Shown here in pieces: positions 1,804 to 26,041 of a stretch of 33,176 nt of DNA; position 1 is the stretch's first letter; each line of letters starts with the position of its first letter. Position numbers and translations under genes: made by a program. The DNA is taken from IMG/VR virus record IMGVR_UViG_3300031227_000230, positions 1-33,176 of that record; one strand, given 5' to 3'. Below the pieces are notes generated by a model. The model did not search any database. It saw only the letters and a list, made by a program, of their open reading frames with translations, and was not told where the DNA came from. Source of the stretch: a virus.

Positions 1804-2009
1804 TTGTACCATCCTTCAACTGCTAATAATAAAAACACAATATCTCGAACAACTAAACTATATAAATCCACATTCAAATGAACATAAATTAAAATAATAT
1901 TACTGATAAACCAAACATAGAAACAATTACGATTCTTACGGTTATTTAATAGCACACCAATAACAGCTAAAACCATAGCTATCATTCCCAATACCTCCAA
2001 CACTATCAT
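1791..2009 (-). CDS. Small integral membrane protein, PnuC-half-like
   Basis: 72 residues with about three hydrophobic segments (residues 2-20, 30-44 and 50-66) and an aromatic C-terminus EGWYKWRK. The NNRKNRNCFYVWFISN segment after the first helix and the GWYKW end resemble half of a PnuC-type nicotinamide riboside transporter or a similar small 3-helix phage membrane protein. This is a resemblance from memory, not a proven assignment. Its start overlaps the polymerase stop by 4 bases (ATGA) and its stop overlaps the helicase start, so it belongs to the replication operon. A role in nucleotide-precursor uptake would fit the neighbourhood but is inference. Confidence 0.7.
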   Translation of the reverse strand: MIVLEVLGMIAMVLAVIGVLLNNRKNRNCFYVWFISNIILIYVHLNVDLYSLVVRDIVFLLLAVEGWYKWRK

Positions 2010-3451
2010 ATTTTCACCTTTTGTTTTTCAAACCAACTCTTACCAAGTGGGGCAACCTCTGCCTCAATTTCAATTGGTGTAGTTATAAATTTATAATGCT
2101 TTTTAATATCAACAGTCATTACTTGATTTACTAATTCCAAGTAATTTTTTAATTCTTTGCGGAGTACATCAGCGATAATACTATCATGAATTTGGCCTAT
2201 CAACAGACTTTTCATTTTATATTTCTTCAGTAGTTTTTGAATACGAATCAAAGACCATAACAGGCAATGAAAAGCCGTCCCTTGTATAGGGTAGTTAATA
2301 ACTTCATTACGTTTCATTTCCCCTTCGATGTGGAAACCTGTTAGCGTATCAAACCCACCATTTTCACAATATGCTGCATACCATTCGTCTTTCCATTGCT
2401 TGTATTTTTTAAATCTGTTGTTCCAAAAATCATATTCAACTTCTTTTATGTGGTGTATAAATGTGCCGGGTTTTGGTTTGGGATAATTCCACTTCCCATT
2501 TACGCCCCTTTCTTTTTCTAATGAACCGAGTTCATAAATCCCTTTAGTTTCTAAATGGCTATACAAATCATATCCGTTTCTGCATTGTAGTTTTAATTTT
2601 TCAATGTTATTCCACAAAGCAGGGGCACAATCATAAAACCAGTCACCATAAAACATAGGAAAGACAAACCCATTTTTGCCACTATACCTAATATCTTTTA
2701 TTCGTTTGGCGTCTTTTTTACCTCGTGATTTCATTTCTCTTTTAGCAAGCATGTAACATTGTTGGGCCATATCACGATGCATATCTTTGGTAGGGTCACA
2801 AATATATTTAAGCATTACAGGATCTTTGTGATACCATTGTGCTCCATGTACTTCTATACCACCATAATCAGCTTCTACAATGTGTCCAGTACGCCACCGG
2901 GATATAAAACATTGCCTTATAAGTTTACCTATATCGTAATTTCTAATAGGCTGATTTTGGATGTTGGGTGAATCACAAGAACCTCTATAAGTTTGTACTA
3001 AATGCAAATTGAAAACAGCGTGAATAAAACCATCACTTGACACTTCACGCAAAATACCTTTTAAATATGTACCCCTTGCTTTTTTTAATTTCTTAATGTT
3101 TAAATGATCTTTAACAAAAGGTATATCGAGTTTTTCTAATGCTTCAATATCTGTCTTTGGTATCCCGCTGGCAGTGCGTTCGCTACACTCATACCCCATT
3201 ATATTAAATAGTACTTTTCCTAATTGCTGTCCTGAATTAAGATTTGTTTTTTGTCCAAATTGTTTTCTCCAGACTTTACAAACTTTGCTATTTTTGATTT
3301 CATCTTCCAGCCTTTTAATTTCATTACCCGTATCAGTCATAGCCTGATTGAGATAATTTGTGTCTATGCACATACCATTGGCTTCTACTTGTGATAAAGC
3401 AATGACGCCGTTGTGTAGTAGTTTATATGCTTTGTTGGTTATTGGTCTCAT
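2006..3451 (-). CDS. Family A DNA polymerase, polymerase domain only
   Basis: 481 residues covering thumb, palm and fingers of a Pol I-type polymerase. Motif A is VEADYGGIEVHG with catalytic D195 (usual DYSQIELR). The motif B region is RIKDIRYSGKNGFVFPMFYGD at 250-270, ending in the conserved YG. A NYPIQGTAFHCL segment (about 387-397) matches the family NxPIQGxAAD motif, and motif C is GQIHDSIIADV with H422-D423. The thumb contains TNLNSGQQLGKVLF, the 'N(L/F)NSPKQL' motif. No 3'-5' or 5'-3' exonuclease domain is present. The proofreading domain is in the separate UDG-fused gene at 4005-5213, two genes upstream. The start codon overlaps the MazG-like stop (ATGA). Residues about 270-345 look like an expanded insert between motif B and the rest of the palm. 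Function: replicative polymerase working with the clamp at 5213-6229. Confidence 0.95.
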   Translation of the reverse strand: MRPITNKAYKLLHNGVIALSQVEANGMCIDTNYLNQAMTDTGNEIKRLEDEIKNSKVCKVWRKQFGQKTNLNSGQQLGKVLFNIMGYECSERTASGIPKTDIEALEKLDIPFVKDHLNIKKLKKARGTYLKGILREVSSDGFIHAVFNLHLVQTYRGSCDSPNIQNQPIRNYDIGKLIRQCFISRWRTGHIVEADYGGIEVHGAQWYHKDPVMLKYICDPTKDMHRDMAQQCYMLAKREMKSRGKKDAKRIKDIRYSGKNGFVFPMFYGDWFYDCAPALWNNIEKLKLQCRNGYDLYSHLETKGIYELGSLEKERGVNGKWNYPKPKPGTFIHHIKEVEYDFWNNRFKKYKQWKDEWYAAYCENGGFDTLTGFHIEGEMKRNEVINYPIQGTAFHCLLWSLIRIQKLLKKYKMKSLLIGQIHDSIIADVLRKELKNYLELVNQVMTVDIKKHYKFITTPIEIEAEVAPLGKSWFEKQKVKI

Positions 3452-4008
3452 GTATTATCTTTCGGTGCTGTATACCAATATTCGGCTTTCACATAATTGT
3501 ATGTCTGTACTAATGTTTCTTTTGATAAGCAACGTTGTATGACGGCCATTATTTCTTTCTCTTGTCGATGGCTAAATCTTTGAAGGATAGTACTAAATGG
3601 GCAGGTTCGGTCTTTAAATGAAGCAACACACTGGATTATTTTTTCTTCCAAATTGTCTTCCAATATTTCACGTTCTTTTTCTAAATCTCTGTTAGTGGCT
3701 TTTTCTTGTGTAAATTGTTCGGGGTATCTTGCTTTCAATTTGGCTATGTTTTTATTCATAACATATTCGAAAGAAACATTTAGCCGCCCACAAATTATTG
3801 CCAAATACCAAAATACATCGCCCACTTCTTCTACAACATTTACGGGGTCTAATTCCCTACCATAAAAAAGTGCTTTCTTAGCGGCGTCTAATAACTCGCC
3901 AGCCTCAGTTGATACTCCTATTATGCCATGTAATAATCTTTCATCCATTGTAGTAAAAGTGGGTGATTCAGTTTTCAATGCTAATTTCATATACTCTTCG
4001 TTTGTCAT
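3448..4008 (-). CDS. MazG-like NTP pyrophosphohydrolase with C-terminal extension
   Basis: 186 residues. The N-terminal about 115 residues are a phage MazG-like all-alpha NTP pyrophosphohydrolase. Metal-binding residues are visible as STEAGELLDA and, after a helix, EEVGDVFWY (E-x-x-E and E-E-x-x-D). The domain ends in the usual IAKLKARYP..F..EKA.NRDLEKE. Such enzymes hydrolyse dNTPs or NTPs, often aberrant ones, to monophosphates. The last about 70 residues (from about 118) form an extra domain of unknown type, possibly a winged helix, not part of standard MazG. The gene is wedged between the UDG-exonuclease and the polymerase with ATGA overlaps on both sides, so all three are likely made in fixed ratio. 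This suggests nucleotide-pool cleaning coupled to replication, which is inference. Confidence 0.88.
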   Translation of the reverse strand: MTNEEYMKLALKTESPTFTTMDERLLHGIIGVSTEAGELLDAAKKALFYGRELDPVNVVEEVGDVFWYLAIICGRLNVSFEYVMNKNIAKLKARYPEQFTQEKATNRDLEKEREILEDNLEEKIIQCVASFKDRTCPFSTILQRFSHRQEKEIMAVIQRCLSKETLVQTYNYVKAEYWYTAPKDNT

Positions 4009-5213
4009 TTTATTTTCTCCAATATTTTAATTTGTTTCATTGCTAATTGATATTCCAAAAGTGAATCCATGCCGTTATATAATAACAATTCTTCAATGTT
4101 TATTTCTCTTATCCGATTCAGTTTACTAGTGCCTTTTGATTTTAAAAATGGGGATATATGACTATCATAATCACCGGCACCCAATGTTACAAACGATTGA
4201 AACTTTAATCCCGTAATGCCTGCCCTATTATCGATAACGTGGGCGGCAATCATTGTATCCCAATACCAATTTTTAACACGATGCCCCAATTTATTCATCG
4301 TCCATCGGTCTTCAAATTTGATATTTGTGGCTATTTTCTTCACTGGTCTTTTCAATAGGTCTGATGTTGCTTCAATAGCTTCACCTTCAAAAGGAAAGGC
4401 GATAGTATGTTTACCATCAAAACAAATAGAACAACTCACAAGTTCAGATTTATCATACTCTGGTTTCAAACAATTTGCCTCATAATCAAAAGCAATACAC
4501 TTTGCTTTCTTACCTAATAACTGTATTGCCTTTGCGGCTCTTGATGGCCTTAATATTATATCAATTTTCTTTTTATAATCTGGTACTGTTTTAAATGGTT
4601 TGGATTTTGATTTTCTCACTCCCATTTTCAAATGCTTATATAATAAGTTTTCCAGTATGTCACTATTCATTCTTAAAAGATATGCCGGGTGATATGTAGG
4701 TATTATCCACGTATTTAATTTCTGACATGGGATGCAAAAGCCAGCCCATTTTTTAATGCCCCCAAAATCCTCATCATCTTTCCATGCGTAAGATAATAAT
4801 GATTGTGTGGCAATACCACCTAGTGTGATAATTACATTGGGTTTTAATCTGTTGATTGTTTTTATTAAGTTGGGTCGGCAGGCTTTTATTTGTCTGGCAT
4901 CGGGTGTTTTGTTATCTTTTGGATGACAAATAATTGCATTCGTTTTCCAACAGTCTCTATCTAATTTTATATTTAACTGCTCTAAAGTTTCCCATAAAAA
5001 TTGGCCGGACTTACCGATAAGCTGAATACCTTTTCTGTCCTCTTCTTTGCCCGGTGCCTCAGCAACAATCAATATCTTCTTCCTGCCTTTGCCTGTAGGT
5101 TGCATCTTCGGTGTTTTACAATGCCTAGACAAGCCACAAGCACCACAATGGGCTATGGTAGATAGTGGGCGTTTACTTTTTACAGTGGATAGGTTAAAGA
5201 ACGCTTTTGCCAT
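4005..5213 (-). CDS. Uracil-DNA glycosylase (family 4-like) fused to 3'-5' exonuclease
   Basis: 402 residues with two domains. Residues about 20-190 resemble a family 4 iron-sulfur uracil-DNA glycosylase: cysteines C23, C26 and C32 at the N-terminus, motif AEAPGKEED at 51-59 (family GEAPGxxED), a TN...C.P..N segment at 91-101, C112-R-P, and the HPAYLL motif at H175. Residues about 235-395 are a DEDD exonuclease of the DNA polymerase I proofreading type: Exo I D243-x-E245 (FDYEA), Exo II N297...F-E-D302, and Exo III Y379-N-G-M-D383. This is the exonuclease missing from the polymerase at 2006-3451. The start shares one base with the clamp stop (TAATG), and the stop overlaps the MazG-like start (ATGA). 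Likely role: proofreading plus recognition or excision of uracil at the fork. The glycosylase could be catalytic or a uracil sensor. Confidence 0.88.
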   Translation of the reverse strand: MAKAFFNLSTVKSKRPLSTIAHCGACGLSRHCKTPKMQPTGKGRKKILIVAEAPGKEEDRKGIQLIGKSGQFLWETLEQLNIKLDRDCWKTNAIICHPKDNKTPDARQIKACRPNLIKTINRLKPNVIITLGGIATQSLLSYAWKDDEDFGGIKKWAGFCIPCQKLNTWIIPTYHPAYLLRMNSDILENLLYKHLKMGVRKSKSKPFKTVPDYKKKIDIILRPSRAAKAIQLLGKKAKCIAFDYEANCLKPEYDKSELVSCSICFDGKHTIAFPFEGEAIEATSDLLKRPVKKIATNIKFEDRWTMNKLGHRVKNWYWDTMIAAHVIDNRAGITGLKFQSFVTLGAGDYDSHISPFLKSKGTSKLNRIREINIEELLLYNGMDSLLEYQLAMKQIKILEKIK

Positions 5214-7822: not shown

Positions 7823-8467
7823 CTATTTGCCTTCTAGTATTATATCTATGTTTGGCCAATCTTCCCGCACTATGTCAGCACATAATTTTAATGTCGTAGC
7901 ATGAGCAGCAGCATGAGCAGCAGCATGAGCAGCAGTATGAGCAGCATAAGCAGCATGAGCAGCATGAGCAGTATGAGCAGCATAAGCAGCAGTATGAGCA
8001 GCATAAGCAGCATGAGCAGCATGAGCAGCATAAGCAGCATGAGCAGCATAAGCAGCAGCATGAGCAGCATGAGCAGCATGAGCAGCAGCAGCAGCAGTAT
8101 GAGCAGCATGAGCAGTAGCAGCAGCAGTATGAGCAGCATGAGCAGTAGCAGCAGCAGCTTCCAATTCTTCTCTGCTAATAACGTCGCCGTTCACCCATTT
8201 TTCATGTAGCAGAATACAATCTTTGCTCGCTTGTGTCATCCATTCCCAAGCTAACCTCGCACATTTCAGGGATGTTTTAGTAATTGGTTTGCGTTCATTT
8301 GAATAAGGTTTCGAGTCGTCCATTGACCCGATTAACCACAGCATCCAATCGCCACGCTCGCACTTGTCCCATGCCTCCTGAGAGGTTGCGAATTGGTGTG
8401 ACCATTGAATGGCACTTTCACAAGCGTTTAATTCTTTAAGTTTTTCAATGTATTTTTTAATTTCCAT
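7823..8467 (-). CDS. Imm5-like 'putative immunity protein' with Ala-repeat tail (copy A)
   Basis: 214 residues. The N-terminal about 100 residues contain AWDKCERGDWMLWLIG and LKCARLAWEWM. The last 25 contain LCADIVREDWP. Both ends are hallmarks of the family named Imm5-like or 'putative immunity protein' in phages and bacteria (from memory). Between them, residues about 103-188 are an alanine repeat built from AAH, AAY and AAT units, expected to form a long helix or solenoid. No biochemical function is established for the family. A paralogue, nearly identical in the N-domain, is at 25451-26041 on the other strand. A promoter-like element with GATAAT at 8509-8514 lies directly upstream, and the same element precedes the paralogue. 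Confidence 0.85.
   Translation of the reverse strand: MEIKKYIEKLKELNACESAIQWSHQFATSQEAWDKCERGDWMLWLIGSMDDSKPYSNERKPITKTSLKCARLAWEWMTQASKDCILLHEKWVNGDVISREELEAAAATAHAAHTAAATAHAAHTAAAAAHAAHAAHAAAYAAHAAYAAHAAHAAYAAHTAAYAAHTAHAAHAAYAAHTAAHAAAHAAAHATTLKLCADIVREDWPNIDIILEGK
7898..8158. repeat. Tandem 9-bp-unit Ala-codon repeat (copy A)
   Basis: The stretch is built of AGCAGC followed by ATG, AT(A) or AGT triplets (GCTGCT plus CAT, TAT or ACT on the coding strand). Alanine is written almost only as GCT. It encodes the Ala-rich tail of the Imm5-like protein. The frequent AGCAGCATG 9-mer makes replication slippage likely, so length variation between isolates is expected. Confidence 0.9.
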
Positions 8468-9280: not shown

Positions 9281-10675
9281 CTAAAATGTTGATTTAATTG
9301 CCGGATTACTCAAACCCAAACACCCAGCTACATGAACACATTTTTGCACATTGAATCTACTTTCCCGCAATACTATCCAATTCAATCTTATTATGTCTCT
9401 AGCCTTTTCTGCATCAACCACATTCAAACCAACCATGCCGGTTACATGAGCAAACTTGCGTTTATCCTCGCTAAAGTTTTGCATGGTGATGGTTTTAGCA
9501 TCGTAAGAGCTTGCGTCCGCTTGTGTGGCTGTTACAACAAGGCAATGGTATTCTTGTGACAATGCCCGCAACTGCTTCCATGTTTCGTTTATGCGGTCCC
9601 TACCTTCAATGCCGGGGAAGTCCATATTCATAATGTCAGCATAATCAACAACAATTACATCAGGCACCCAATCATCACGTTCCCAGTTTTGCAAAATGCT
9701 TTTCATCATCCTGACATTTAGTGTTGAGTTGGGGTGGCATGATAATTTGAATAATGGGCGTTTCGATTTAATCTTTGTTCGCATGACTTTTTCACATGCC
9801 TTTTTTGCTATCTTCCAATTCAACTTTTTATTGAATGTTTTCACTTTCGATTTAACACGGGCAACATTTTCTTTCTCTTTTATTTTCATTGCTACTGGGA
9901 TATTTAATTTACAGGGGTATAATGGACGACCAGAAACGCGGATCATCAATCTACGCATTATTTGGTTCTGGCTCATATCACCAGCTTCAAAGAATGCTAC
10001 TTTCTTTCTTTGTAGCATTGACCTGTAAGCAATATCCAAAAGCCAAAAAGTCTTCCCCCTTTTCTCTGGTCCTAAAAAAGCAATAAATGCATCACGTTCC
10101 AAAGCATCCTTGAAAAACCTACCTAAATCACCGGGATATTCAATCAGTGCTTCTTTTTTATCAGCAAAGGCCGCTTTAATTGCTTCTTTATCTTGAAGGA
10201 TATTTATACCTTCACCATCACCCAATTCTATTTTGTTAAATTGCACAACCCTGTCATTTGCTTTTTCCGGTTTATCAATTTCAATATCACCTTGTATTTC
10301 CTCAGCTAATTTTTCTAATTGGACTTCATTAAAATACTTACCGGCAACATCAATTACATATTGGCTATTGGTTTCTTCTTCTTGTTCTTCATAATCATCT
10401 GAAATTGAACCTAAAAACTTTTCAACTAGTTTAGTGTTTTCTTTGCTGGTATGATTATTTGCCCAACTTTGGTACAAGTTTTCAATTTGTCCTTTTGGGG
10501 CTTCGTTGTATTTATTGTAATATTTGATACACCAGCCAGCTATCAAGTTCGCCCAGTTGATCCTGAAAAATCCACTTTTCCATTTGTTAGCAATCTTAGC
10601 CAACACCAAATCATCCACAATTAGTGCTGTTAATACTAATCGTTCGCTGTGTTTGTTTTTCCTGTCTATTTTCAT
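9281..10675 (-). CDS. DnaB-like replicative helicase / RecA-fold ATPase
   Basis: 464 residues. Residues about 1-130 are helical, like a DnaB N-terminal or linker domain. The ATPase core starts near 180 with Walker A LGPEKRGKT (G202-T209), a FFEAGDMS segment (DnaB motif H1a-like, usual 'S(L/G)EM'), Walker B VIVVDYADIM, a VVTATQAD segment with the H3 glutamine, and a final IVLRESRFN with the arginine-finger-like motif H4. It unwinds DNA ahead of the fork and should load with the initiator encoded just upstream and the primase at 12180-13046. A 129-base gap upstream holds no convincing gene. The protein lacks a separate primase domain. Confidence 0.85.
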   Translation of the reverse strand: MKIDRKNKHSERLVLTALIVDDLVLAKIANKWKSGFFRINWANLIAGWCIKYYNKYNEAPKGQIENLYQSWANNHTSKENTKLVEKFLGSISDDYEEQEEETNSQYVIDVAGKYFNEVQLEKLAEEIQGDIEIDKPEKANDRVVQFNKIELGDGEGINILQDKEAIKAAFADKKEALIEYPGDLGRFFKDALERDAFIAFLGPEKRGKTFWLLDIAYRSMLQRKKVAFFEAGDMSQNQIMRRLMIRVSGRPLYPCKLNIPVAMKIKEKENVARVKSKVKTFNKKLNWKIAKKACEKVMRTKIKSKRPLFKLSCHPNSTLNVRMMKSILQNWERDDWVPDVIVVDYADIMNMDFPGIEGRDRINETWKQLRALSQEYHCLVVTATQADASSYDAKTITMQNFSEDKRKFAHVTGMVGLNVVDAEKARDIIRLNWIVLRESRFNVQKCVHVAGCLGLSNPAIKSTF

Positions 10676-10804: not shown

Positions 10805-12013
10805 TTAGACGACAGCCTGAAGCATTTTCTTATATTGGCCCCACCTTTTGGGGTCAGCACAAAAGCCAAGGGCTAATTGCTTGCCCATAGCATCAAATCT
10901 TTTGTGGTTGATATTAAATGTGTAATTACGGAAATCACCATAGAATCCTTCCCAGCCTTTGATATTGTCCCATATTTTCTTTAGCCATATTCTTTCCACA
11001 AACCACTCAACATCAATCAAATTTTCATTATCTGAAATAACATGATGGGCAAAGGAAAATACATCTTCTATCCTATCCGTTTGCTTTTTAGTTTTTAATG
11101 AGGCCGTTAATTCAAAATGATTTTTCAAGTATTCACGATAATTATTGCAAGAAGTTTGAACCACTTCTGGCAACAACTCAACACAACCGGCAGGCCAATT
11201 ACCAAAATTGGCAAGCGTTTCTGCTATTTGACGGGATGCTTTTGTTATTTTGATGTTTGTCTTTTTGTTTTGTTTTGCGTCTGCTATATTATTACATTCA
11301 GCCCGGTGCATGGCATCCTCAATCCTTTTGAACTTGTCAGTAAGGTCATTTGCTTTGTAAATTTGAGGGGTGTACTTTTCCTCTATATTTTGACAATACC
11401 ACAATATAACTTTTTTGACATATGACTTGGTTGATTTGCTAATTAACTTTCTGATTTGGTTTGACCATGTTTTCAATTGAATAGTTCTATTGATGTTACC
11501 TTTCTTATCTATTGCTTTTTTGAGCTTCTTGGCTAATTTCAATTCAAATGAATCTTTTGGATTTATTAAATGTTCACGGGGGTTCGAAGAATCCCCAAAT
11601 ATTTCTTTTTTCTTATTATTCTTTTTAGTATTATTATTCTTTAATACACCGTGTATTTCAACTAGTTGATTTTCTACTTCTAGGTTTCCGCATAGTGGCT
11701 TTTCATATACAAGATATTCCCAACGGGATATCCTATTTTTGCCATCTCTCAATACATTACATTTCATATATCCATATTTTATCAACTCTTTTATGCCAGA
11801 TTTTAAACTGGATTCCCCATCAGGTGCGTGGGTTTTGAGTTCGCTCATGTATAATTTCCAATTACTTGGTAAAGATAATATGTAAGAAAGTATTCCTCTG
11901 GCTTTCCATGACAGTCTTTTGTCCCCCAAAGTTTTTCTATCAATTTGGACGTATGGATTCTGTTTATTTTTTACTACTTTGAAAATTGAGTTATTTTCAT
12001 TATTGTTTTCCAT
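10805..12013 (-). CDS. Replication initiator / helicase-loader-like HTH protein
   Basis: 402 residues. Residues about 12-105 are a winged HTH of the phage/plasmid replication-initiator type: YVQIDRKTLGDKRLSWKARG, ILSYILSLPSNWKLY, then GESSLKSGIKELIKYGYM (the 'LS.kA.GlL..llSlp..W.........ir..l.eL...GY' pattern). An Asn/Lys-rich linker follows (about 125-145), then a helical C-terminal half with Trp-rich segments, perhaps for helicase binding. It is directly upstream of the DnaB-like gene, the usual place of an initiator or loader. GGGAAGG lies 6 nt before the ATG. A 17-bp-spaced promoter and a structured leader precede it (12038-12177), so expression is probably controlled. Confidence 0.75.
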   Translation of the reverse strand: MENNNENNSIFKVVKNKQNPYVQIDRKTLGDKRLSWKARGILSYILSLPSNWKLYMSELKTHAPDGESSLKSGIKELIKYGYMKCNVLRDGKNRISRWEYLVYEKPLCGNLEVENQLVEIHGVLKNNNTKKNNKKKEIFGDSSNPREHLINPKDSFELKLAKKLKKAIDKKGNINRTIQLKTWSNQIRKLISKSTKSYVKKVILWYCQNIEEKYTPQIYKANDLTDKFKRIEDAMHRAECNNIADAKQNKKTNIKITKASRQIAETLANFGNWPAGCVELLPEVVQTSCNNYREYLKNHFELTASLKTKKQTDRIEDVFSFAHHVISDNENLIDVEWFVERIWLKKIWDNIKGWEGFYGDFRNYTFNINHKRFDAMGKQLALGFCADPKRWGQYKKMLQAVV

Positions 12014-12037
12014 TACATACCTTCCCTATATAAAAGA

Positions 12038-12138
12038 AAACACCGGCCACGGTATTTCAGACCCACGTTACAGAATGAGAAATGTGCAGCCGGTGTTTGT
12101 ACTTTGTAAAATTGTTTTGGTTTTGTAACGTAGGTCTA
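12038..12138 (-). ncRNA. Structured 5' leader of the initiator gene (two interlocking stems)
   Basis: In the minus-strand transcript, AGACCTACGTTACA (12137-12124) pairs with TGTAACGTGGGTCT (12072-12059): 14 bp with one G-U. AAACACCGGCTGC (12098-12086) pairs with GTGGCCGGTGTTT (12050-12038): 13 bp with two G-U. The order is P1 5', P2 5', P1 3', P2 3', which is a pseudoknot topology. All three G-U pairs would be A-C mismatches in a plus-strand transcript, so the RNA of the initiator operon is the one under selection. Predicted transcription starts at about 12142, just before P1. P2 ends 24 bases before the start codon and is followed by TTTTCTTTT, so it could also act as a terminator. Possible roles: attenuator, translational control, or initiator-protein binding. 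Confidence 0.65.
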
Positions 12139-12148
12139 TCATGTTTTT

Positions 12149-12177
12149 AATATAACTGTTTTACTTTTACTTGGCAA
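12149..12177 (-). promoter_or_regulatory. Sigma70-type promoter of the initiator operon
   Basis: Minus strand: TTGCCA (12177-12172), 17-bp spacer, TATATT (12154-12149). Predicted start about 12142. It lies immediately after the primase stop codon and drives the structured leader and the initiator gene. Confidence 0.6.
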
Positions 12178-12179
12178 TA

Positions 12180-13046
12180 TTATTTTAATAATTTTTTTAA
12201 CTTGTTTATTTCTTTAGGTTTAGCTGAGGCTGCATCATTCGCATCGAGTGTTATGTTGTAAGTTTTGCCGGGAAACAAAGACAATTCATCACATAATCGC
12301 TTTGCTCTTTGTTGTGCTTGTGGTTCATTATCAAAACAAACATAACGTAAAGGATGCTCAATCATTTTAGCAACTTGGGCCTTACTATAATTTATGCCAA
12401 GGGTGGCAACTGCTCCCGGCCCAATTGCCCAAACATCAGTCGGCCCTTCAAAAATTAAAATTGTATGGCTTGCATATTCTTCACCATATAATAATTTACT
12501 ATGTAAAACTGATTCTTGTTCTGCCGTTGCATTTATGTATTTTGCTTTTGTTTCATCGCTGATAGAACGAGTGGTCCAGCTAACTACTTTTCCTCTGTAG
12601 TGTATAGGTATAAAAATTCGCCATTGCAATTCACTGGCAATGCCTATACCTTTTATTTCCCAATACTTTTCTAATCGTTTAGGATTAAATCCTCGTCTGG
12701 TTAAATATTTTCTGTGGGGTGATTGTAATTTGCAAACACCTTTTGGGATGATTAACTTGCCTGCATGTTTTTCTTCTATATGTTTTACAGAAGATAAATC
12801 ACCAATAAGTTTTTTAGCGGTTGAAAAAGAAGTATCTGTAATTTCGGCAACTACCTGAATTAGAGGATGCCAACCACACCGCCAACAAATACAATACTTG
12901 TCTGATAGGTTATATCCTAGATGCCACTTGTGCGTATCTTTACCACAGAACGGGCAGTCTATTTGCAGCCAGCCACTCCGGCAATGGTGGTGCCCTTCTG
13001 GTGCTTGTGGTATATTGTATTCAGATAATATATCGGTAAAGTTCAT
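12180..13046 (-). CDS. DnaG-type DNA primase (zinc finger plus TOPRIM)
   Basis: 288 residues. The N-terminal zinc-binding region has histidines around 19-21, C31-P-F-C34, and CICWRCG with C54 and C57, as in CHC2-type primases. The catalytic TOPRIM domain shows LIFEGPTDVWA (the E of motif 1), then AVATLG and VCFDNEPQAQQRAKRL (the DxD-like metal site, here D-N-E). The C-terminal helicase-interaction domain is absent and the protein is half the length of bacterial DnaG. It synthesises RNA primers for the phage fork. A GATAAT-class promoter element ends 7 bases before the ATG, so mRNA from it would be almost leaderless. No Shine-Dalgarno is visible. Confidence 0.88.
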   Translation of the reverse strand: MNFTDILSEYNIPQAPEGHHHCRSGWLQIDCPFCGKDTHKWHLGYNLSDKYCICWRCGWHPLIQVVAEITDTSFSTAKKLIGDLSSVKHIEEKHAGKLIIPKGVCKLQSPHRKYLTRRGFNPKRLEKYWEIKGIGIASELQWRIFIPIHYRGKVVSWTTRSISDETKAKYINATAEQESVLHSKLLYGEEYASHTILIFEGPTDVWAIGPGAVATLGINYSKAQVAKMIEHPLRYVCFDNEPQAQQRAKRLCDELSLFPGKTYNITLDANDAASAKPKEINKLKKLLK

Positions 13047-25373: not shown

Positions 25374-25450
25374 TGACTTCGGCGTATATCGCAGGTTCCT
25401 TTAGTGTGGCAACAAGCCCTTTTCTTATTATTTTTGGAAGGAGAAGCGTA

Positions 25451-26041
25451 ATGCAAATAAAAGAATGCATCAAAAAACTTGAAGAGTTAAACGCTTGTGG
25501 TTGTGCCATTAAATGGTCTAGGCAATTCACTACTGCACAAGAAGCTTGGGATAAGTGCGAACGTGGCGATTGGGCGTTGTGGTTAATCGGCAAACTAGAT
25601 GAATCTAAACCTTATTCTGATGAGCGCAAGCCGTTAGTGTCAACGTGCTTAAAGTGCGCAAGATTAGCTTGGGAGTGGATGCCGAAGATGGGCAAAGACT
25701 GCATCGAATTATATGAAAAATGGGTTAACGGGGAAAAAATCTCCGTTGAAGAATTAAAAACCGCCTCTGCCGCCTCTGCCGCCTATGCCGCCGATGCCGC
25801 CTCTGCCGCCTATGCCGCCGATGCCGCCACCTCTGCCACCTCTGCCGCCTCTGCCGCCGATGCCGCCACCTCTGCCGCCTATGCCGCCACCTCTGCCGCC
25901 TATGCCGCCACCTCTGCCACCTATGCCGCCGATGCCGCCTCTGCCGCCTATGCCGCCTATGCCGCAACACTAAACCAATGTGCTGACATAGTGCGGGAAA
26001 ATTATCCGAATGTAAATATGATACCGGAAGGAAAAATGTAA
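25451..26041 (+). CDS. Imm5-like 'putative immunity protein' with Ala-repeat tail (copy B)
   Basis: 196 residues from ATG 25451, chosen because GGAAGGAG precedes it and because the paralogue at 7823-8467 starts at the same point (MQIKECIKKLEELNAC against MEIKKYIEKLKELNAC). The conserved parts are AWDKCERGDWALWLIG, LKCARLAWEWM and the C-terminal QCADIVRENYPN. The repeat (residues about 104-172) uses AAY, AAD, AAS and AAT units, not the AAH of copy A. Family function is unknown; the 'immunity' name comes from toxin-immunity gene surveys. It is placed between MuF-like and protease genes, behind the same promoter class as copy A. Confidence 0.85.
   Translation: MQIKECIKKLEELNACGCAIKWSRQFTTAQEAWDKCERGDWALWLIGKLDESKPYSDERKPLVSTCLKCARLAWEWMPKMGKDCIELYEKWVNGEKISVEELKTASAASAAYAADAASAAYAADAATSATSAASAADAATSAAYAATSAAYAATSATYAADAASAAYAAYAATLNQCADIVRENYPNVNMIPEGKM
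25761..25965. repeat. Tandem 9-bp-unit Ala-codon repeat (copy B)
   Basis: It is built of GCCGCC plus TAT, GAT, TCT or ACC triplets. Alanine is written as GCC throughout, whereas copy A uses GCT. The repeat codes for the Ala-rich tail of Imm5-like copy B. Confidence 0.9.

Follow-up and report, generated by a model that had tools for sequence, protein, structure and literature searches.

What is encoded in the gap between the DNA primase and replication initiator genes of an uncultured phage, and does it regulate the genes behind it? The window, meaning the whole 33,176-bp virus record analyzed here, had received a first-pass annotation in which this gap holds a leader RNA with two interlocked stems that controls initiator dose, like copy-number control in plasmids, or acts as an attenuator. 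The interlocked-stem leader RNA is strongly supported by the results described below. Attenuation is the better reading of its role, because promoter, stems, U-tract, and RBS are all present, whereas plasmid-like control of initiator dose found no support.

Layout of the leader in the window

The interlocked two-stem RNA lies on the minus strand at 12038–12137, in the gap that runs from the primase stop (12180) to the initiator start (12013). In minus-strand order, the features of the locus are as follows:

12180–13046, minus strand: DNA primase, the upstream gene (PHROG 47, Pfam DNAG_N), with its stop 42 nt before A
12149–12177, minus strand: promoter-like TTGCCA-17-TATATT, by consensus match only, with 11 nt from the end of the −10 element to A
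12124–12137, minus strand: A, the 5′ strand of S1, AGACCUACGUUACA, near the predicted RNA 5′ end
12099–12123, minus strand: loop L1, 25 nt, from the crossing-helix finder
12086–12098, minus strand: B, the 5′ strand of S2 (putative terminator stem), AAACACCGGCUGC
12073–12085, minus strand: loop L2, 13 nt, from the crossing-helix finder
12059–12072, minus strand: A′, the 3′ strand of S1, UGUAACGUGGGUCU
12051–12058, minus strand: loop L3, 8 nt, which can alternatively serve as 5′ arm of a local hairpin formed with B′
12038–12050, minus strand: B′, the 3′ strand of S2, GUGGCCGGUGUUU
12028–12037, minus strand: U-run UCUUUUAUAU directly after S2, a putative intrinsic-terminator tail
12020–12027, minus strand: Shine-Dalgarno-like AGGGAAGG, called from the sequence
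10805–12013, minus strand: winged-helix/DnaD-like replication initiator of 402 aa, the downstream gene (PHROG 4707, 428, 186)
9281–10675, minus strand: DnaB-like helicase, further downstream on the same strand (PHROG 19, Pfam DnaB_C)

S1 (A/A′) comprises 14 bp including one G-U pair, and S2 (B/B′) comprises 13 bp including two. The A-B-A′-B′ order originally called is confirmed on the minus strand, as is the claim that all three non-Watson–Crick pairs are G-U there. With the crossing-helix finder the weaker stem scores 30.0, above the maximum of 26.0 obtained from 40 shuffles scored on both strands (80 strands in total), and the runner-up crossing pair on the minus strand of the window reaches 21.0. 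The promoter-like site said to precede the first stem is indeed present at 12177–12149, and stands out from shuffles of the 60 nt upstream (p = 0.005). Also as described, 24 nt separate the end of S2 from the initiator ATG (12013), and a U-rich run follows the stem, with T in 7 of the 10 nt right after B′. Folding without pseudoknots gives an unremarkable MFE for the 201-nt region (z = −1.2) because the program is unable to make crossing stems; the 100-nt core has a z of −2.7.

The window sequence also contains a local alternative. At 12037–12058 (minus strand), B′ on its own makes an 8-bp local hairpin, AAAUACCG-UGGC-CGGUGUUU, before the U-run. This hairpin is a possible second candidate terminator, compatible with S1 and without need for B. 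Local hairpins of similar stability are rare among the relatives described below, being absent or weak in most, and we rejected the idea that such a hairpin replaces S2 as a general rule.

Relatives and conservation of the pairing

As a single query against viral contigs, the initiator protein found no relatives. The route to relatives was instead through the primase and the SNF2-like helicase of the window phage, with the primase leading to L002 (54% identical). The primase–initiator gap of L002 reads GGUGUACAAA - AGAACCUACUGGAGA - UUUGUACACC - UCUCCAGUAGGUUUU, then UAAGGG and the initiator ATG; its stem order equals that of the window, and the two have no stem sequence in common. SNF2, DnaB, and primase searches together gathered ∼130 distinct contigs, the bulk of them through DnaB and primase alignments. 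From these we have 30 elements in 28 contigs, all of one uncultivated lineage, with the same topology and unrelated sequences; there are two elements apiece in L020 and L059. Among the 30, L016 and L022 were accepted under relaxed pairing rules that allow a bulge or mismatches, and two others (L010 and L148) are less secure members that have the topology and the U-tract at another genome location. Across elements, S1 spans 7–20 bp (median 11) and S2 8–21 bp (median 14), while the loops measure 15–35 nt (L1), −1 to 28 nt (L2), and 0–22 nt (L3), for element lengths of 72–117 nt. A possible further version with one mismatch, judged by eye, is present in L019.

The recovery of these elements was measured against controls. 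In 1.17 Mb of non-redundant contigs, a summed score of ≥56 is reached 22 times on the sense strand, 3 times on the antisense strand, and twice in three shuffles together (0.67 each); at ≥60 the counts are 11, 1, and 0. When 24 contigs were fetched later, with thresholds fixed beforehand, two new elements appeared, L328 (66.5) and L320 (55.5); each immediately follows the primase gene, with A starting <50 nt from the primase stop. The same 24 contigs gave no antisense matches, and four shuffles of them gave none at ≥56. Chance complementarity of the stems, for which only the AT-rich background speaks, is contradicted by the shuffles, the antisense control, the fresh contigs, synteny, and recurrence in 28 contigs, and its probability is negligible.

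The first-pass annotation had named a lack of compensatory change in homologous leaders as grounds for refutation. Run on the relatives, this test shows that 30 elements retain the pairing although their stem sequences are unrelated. All 671 stem pairs in 26 elements are standard, which the finding method guarantees. Along positions 1–12 of either stem, every position shows at least three standard pair types among these 26 elements, and stem strands have a mean identity of 32% between elements. Therefore, the pairing is conserved and the sequence is not. We built the covariation argument on per-element pairing and controls because formal pair counting on the L047/L053/L059a alignment is weak, with three sequences and one stem moved by a column by MAFFT.

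The mismatches reveal which strand is under selection. Conserved DNA would tolerate G-T and A-C mismatches equally. With Watson–Crick pairs only, 11 matches are found at ≥56; the addition of G-U raises this to 22, whereas the addition of A-C instead leaves it at 11. Where stems built from Watson–Crick pairs only meet a first mismatch followed by a pair, that mismatch is G-T in 11 cases and A-C in 2. With both kinds allowed, the stems contain 45 G-U versus 9 A-C, a count with some residual bias, since G-U pairs were permitted in the initial search for the elements. G-U is retained and A-C is not, and thus the sense-strand RNA is the conserved object. The one-strand argument, which began with three pairs in the window, is widened by these data to the whole element family. 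Two stems in A-B-A′-B′ order conserved as RNA, the mark of an H-type pseudoknot, are what we find, and on this sequence evidence it is near certain that the interlocked structure is a real, conserved RNA.

Rfam contains no counterpart, with 0 matches at the gathering threshold in the window and in the loci of 12 relatives; the best sub-threshold match has 17.5 bits versus the 46.5 required. Covariance tools that forbid pseudoknots and depend on sequence similarity are blind to the element, as the region z of −1.2 and the empty Rfam result illustrate, whereas a search by topology only recovers ∼30 members. No named phage is closely related, identities being at most 33% for the helicase and below 30% for the primase. 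A literature search of titles and abstracts, with subscription papers mostly outside its coverage, returned no description of the element. As judged from its sequence and predicted mechanism, the element is outside every described family, and it would function like a candidate attenuator.

Genome neighborhood and predicted transcription signals

The minus-strand replication module of the window runs in the order sigma-like, SNF2-like helicase, primase, initiator, DnaB helicase, radical-SAM-like, clamp, exonuclease, and polymerase A, where names without a family match were assigned by reading the sequence. Several other genes of the window deserve mention. By eye, the 402-aa ORF at 4005–5213 (minus strand) appears to have a uracil-DNA glycosylase-like domain fused to a 3′–5′ exonuclease, and the polymerase A ORF at 2006–3451 (minus strand) is separate from it, a split arrangement. 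The genes at 7823–8467 (minus strand) and 25448–26041 (plus strand) form a homologous pair (54% identity), with one member in each half of the genome; both have long alanine-rich tails from 9-bp tandem repeats whose letters differ (AH/AY versus AS/AT/AD).

In 27 of the 30 cases the element sits between primase and helicase, the exceptions being one of the two in L020, plus L148 and L010. The gene behind it is a replication initiator in most members. Elsewhere it is a methylase-like gene (first element of L059), a NUMOD3 protein (second element of L059), an HNH-like protein by eye (L089 and L020), a CxxC protein (L123 and L132), or DnaB behind a small ORF (L047). Many relatives have primase and initiator genes that overlap by 4 nt, with no element and no space for one. 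Eight others (L004, L007, L008, L017, L036, L039, L040, and L042) have the intergenic space and no clear crossing stems, and relatives of the initiator from other phages (L210–L287) have no element. On the DnaB tree, presence is clustered yet requires 13 changes (shuffled mean 20), and therefore the element has been gained or lost repeatedly, or was missed in some contigs. These distributions speak against a device for initiator dose of the copy-number kind: the element also precedes NUMOD3, HNH-like, DnaB, and CxxC genes, antisense promoters are not consistently present, the initiator occurs in other phages without it, and many relatives in the lineage lack room for it. It looks more like a replication-operon leader than an initiator-bound device.

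Other sequence patterns occupy this interval in contigs without the element. In a sister clade (L004, L007, L036, L039, L040, and L042), the gaps downstream of primase contain repeated GATAATAT motifs and short GCGTCAGACGC-like dyads, possibly an origin or a different leader. In L052 and L120, the primase–DnaB interval has perfect palindromes, CTGCATATGCAG, at even spacing, a candidate iteron array or origin.

The flanking signals follow a common pattern. A promoter-like site upstream of A is found at p ≤ 0.05 in 13 of 28 elements, where ∼1.4 would be expected (shuffles of the same 60 nt); in a stricter rerun at p ≤ 0.05 the sense strand gives 11/27 and the antisense strand 3/27, with an antisense mean p of 0.45. 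These scores are matches to a promoter consensus. TTGACA-16-TATAAT precedes A at a distance of 10 nt in L099 and 8 nt in L059b. On the far side, the first 10 nt past B′ have a mean of 5.6 T versus 2.5 expected, and 23 of 27 elements have a U-tract after B′ (at least 5 T within 8 nt), compared with 12% of random positions; the tract is weak in L002, L059b, L073, and L104. An RBS and start codon usually come <30 nt past the element. A GC-containing stem followed by a U-tract, the signature expected of an attenuator, therefore lies between the putative promoter and the RBS.

Comparison of the members yielded no ligand motif, regulator, or leader peptide that they share. Subgroups do have loops in common. 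In L018 (4142–4220), L026 (6059–6135), L099 (8076–8151), and L020 (5215–5294), both stems differ while L2 is UGARCU and L3 ends in UAG beside the S2 apex, which might reflect the binding of a factor or a tertiary contact. In L103 and L104, a common L2 of 24–25 nt with ACACUUCCUUUCUGAAAGU is able to form a small hairpin within the loop.

Folding order and candidate roles

In RNA ending at A′, S1 is part of the MFE structure in 25/25 folded elements, and therefore S1 should close before B′ is made. S2 is the more stable of the two stems in 20 of 25. We had considered that the stems might be sterically exclusive, but this is contradicted by a simple A-form model in which 26 of 30 elements accommodate both full-length stems, and the other four do so after ≤2 bp of fraying, with either L3 across the shallow groove of S1 or L2 in its deep groove. 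Combined L2 and L3 lengths of ≤4 nt occur in 0 cases versus 2.5 in shuffled pairings of the same loop lengths (P = 0.03). S1 and S2 are disjoint in 30/30, except that their ends overlap by 1 nt in L128 and L132. The coexistence geometry, the minimum on L2 plus L3, and the disjoint stems together favor a standing knot over an either/or switch.

These observations suggest the following model. The element would be the 5′ leader of a replication operon that encodes the initiator, the DnaB helicase, and then the clamp and polymerase on one strand. A promoter between primase and initiator would begin the RNA at or slightly before A. A′ would emerge first, so that S1 closes with B held in its loop, and B′, emerging later, would pair with B to form S2. 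Together with the U-run, S2 would serve as an intrinsic terminator at which many transcripts stop as a structured RNA of ∼100 nt, while the remainder read through into the initiator; a factor that prevents S1 formation would be expected to raise operon expression. Termination at S2, the direction of the S1 effect, and S1-linked upregulation are all what we infer from structure. Transcription attenuation is the most probable role of the element, at about even chances, in the form of a promoter-proximal attenuator whose terminator is interlocked with the first-folding stem. The loop of S2 is 17–56 nt, far longer than is usual for intrinsic terminators. In our model we lean slightly toward S1 aiding S2 by closing this long loop and away from S1 as a block to S2, since the two stems do not overlap as an antiterminator and its terminator do. 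More tentatively, the members might constitute a class of phage gene-control RNA, a knotted terminator in which the only conserved property is that a replication operon begins with two disjoint helices interlocked in the order of their transcription, such that closure order and kinetics, not sequence or a ligand pocket, decide whether polymerase stops.

It is less probable, though the best placed of the alternatives, that the pseudoknot acts on translation or mRNA stability without termination, with a protein (initiator, SSB, or other) on the knot blocking the RBS or the knotted 5′ end protecting the mRNA. The positions of the stems would suit this, since S2 ends 13–26 nt from the start codon in many members and S1 begins approximately at the predicted RNA 5′ end. 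There is also a phage precedent in the T4 gene 32 operator, a pseudoknot of ∼28 nt located 5′ of the RBS, at the operator's 5′ end, with UUAAA repeats, that is bound by its own product (PMC535899). Like that operator, the element is a phage pseudoknot that precedes the RBS of a replication gene; unlike it (no terminator is described there), the element is 72–117 nt long, variable in sequence, and followed by a U-tract. Two features of S2, the strongly enriched U-tract directly behind it and its A-rich 5′ strand, are typical of terminators and unnecessary for a translational operator; loop sequences are common only within subgroups, and the downstream genes vary.

An improbable reading is that the element is a phage small RNA, a knotted species of ∼80–115 nt with its own terminator that acts in trans as a regulator or as a decoy of host defence or RNase, and that the gene behind it is merely co-located. 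A compact structured RNA bracketed by a putative promoter and terminator would fit, and pseudoknotted small RNAs such as RydC are known (PMC4337610). An RBS and ATG immediately behind the element in most members argue otherwise. Matches to A and B elsewhere in the window are at chance level, except for their own arms and a mild excess for B at 3 mismatches, and stem sequences are unrelated between phages, so that there is no conserved seed.

We consider a replication origin or primer site, consisting of DNA hairpins or a promoter-made RNA primer beside the initiator gene, to be quite unlikely. Although the location within the replication module and the single copy per genome, as a rule, are compatible with it, the retention of G-U over A-C points to selection on the RNA of one strand, L020 and L059 carry two copies before different genes, and the window leader has no iteron-type tandem repeats.

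Control by antisense RNA, as in plasmid copy-number systems, is very unlikely. It draws on the position before a replication initiator and on the attenuators or pseudoknots of the pT181 and ColIb-P9 leaders. Like the attenuators of the pT181/pIP501 type (repC leader), the element is an initiator 5′ leader with hairpins and a putative intrinsic terminator before the RBS. In pT181, an antisense RNA acts, and the 5′ portion of the terminator stem is the partner with which an anti-terminator pairs (PMC4878617). The element has neither trait: its interlocked stems are disjoint, and antisense promoters are not in excess in the consensus scan.

Other known leaders resemble the element in part. In the ColIb-P9 type, the pseudoknot consists of a short pairing between a loop and the RBS, and translation of a leader peptide together with an antisense RNA switches it. 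The ColIb-P9, IncB, and IncL/M rep leaders place a pseudoknot in the initiator mRNA leader, where it serves initiator translation in the ColIb-P9 type (work cited in PMC10724649). The element is similarly located but differs from ColIb-P9 in its two helices of 7–21 bp, its lack of a leader peptide among the members compared, and the U-tract after it. The preQ1-I, SAM-II, and fluoride riboswitches combine a leader pseudoknot and a terminator decision with a conserved ligand-binding core, whereas no nucleotide of the element is conserved across members and Rfam gives no match. In type III toxin–antitoxin systems (ToxIN; for a review, see PMC5086642), a promoter, a tandem-repeat pseudoknotted RNA, and a terminator precede an endoRNase gene. 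The gene order here is alike, the terminator being putative, but we rejected a type III antitoxin since there are no tandem repeats and the downstream gene matches replication initiator PHROGs rather than encoding a ToxN-like endoRNase.

Finally, recovery by topology alone suggests that uncultivated phages contain a hidden stock of RNA regulators conserved in topology. If the attenuator reading is true, the members would be a natural set of terminators, diverse in sequence, whose terminator helix is separate from the helix made first, and they would provide a clean system for testing how the order of co-transcriptional folding controls termination.
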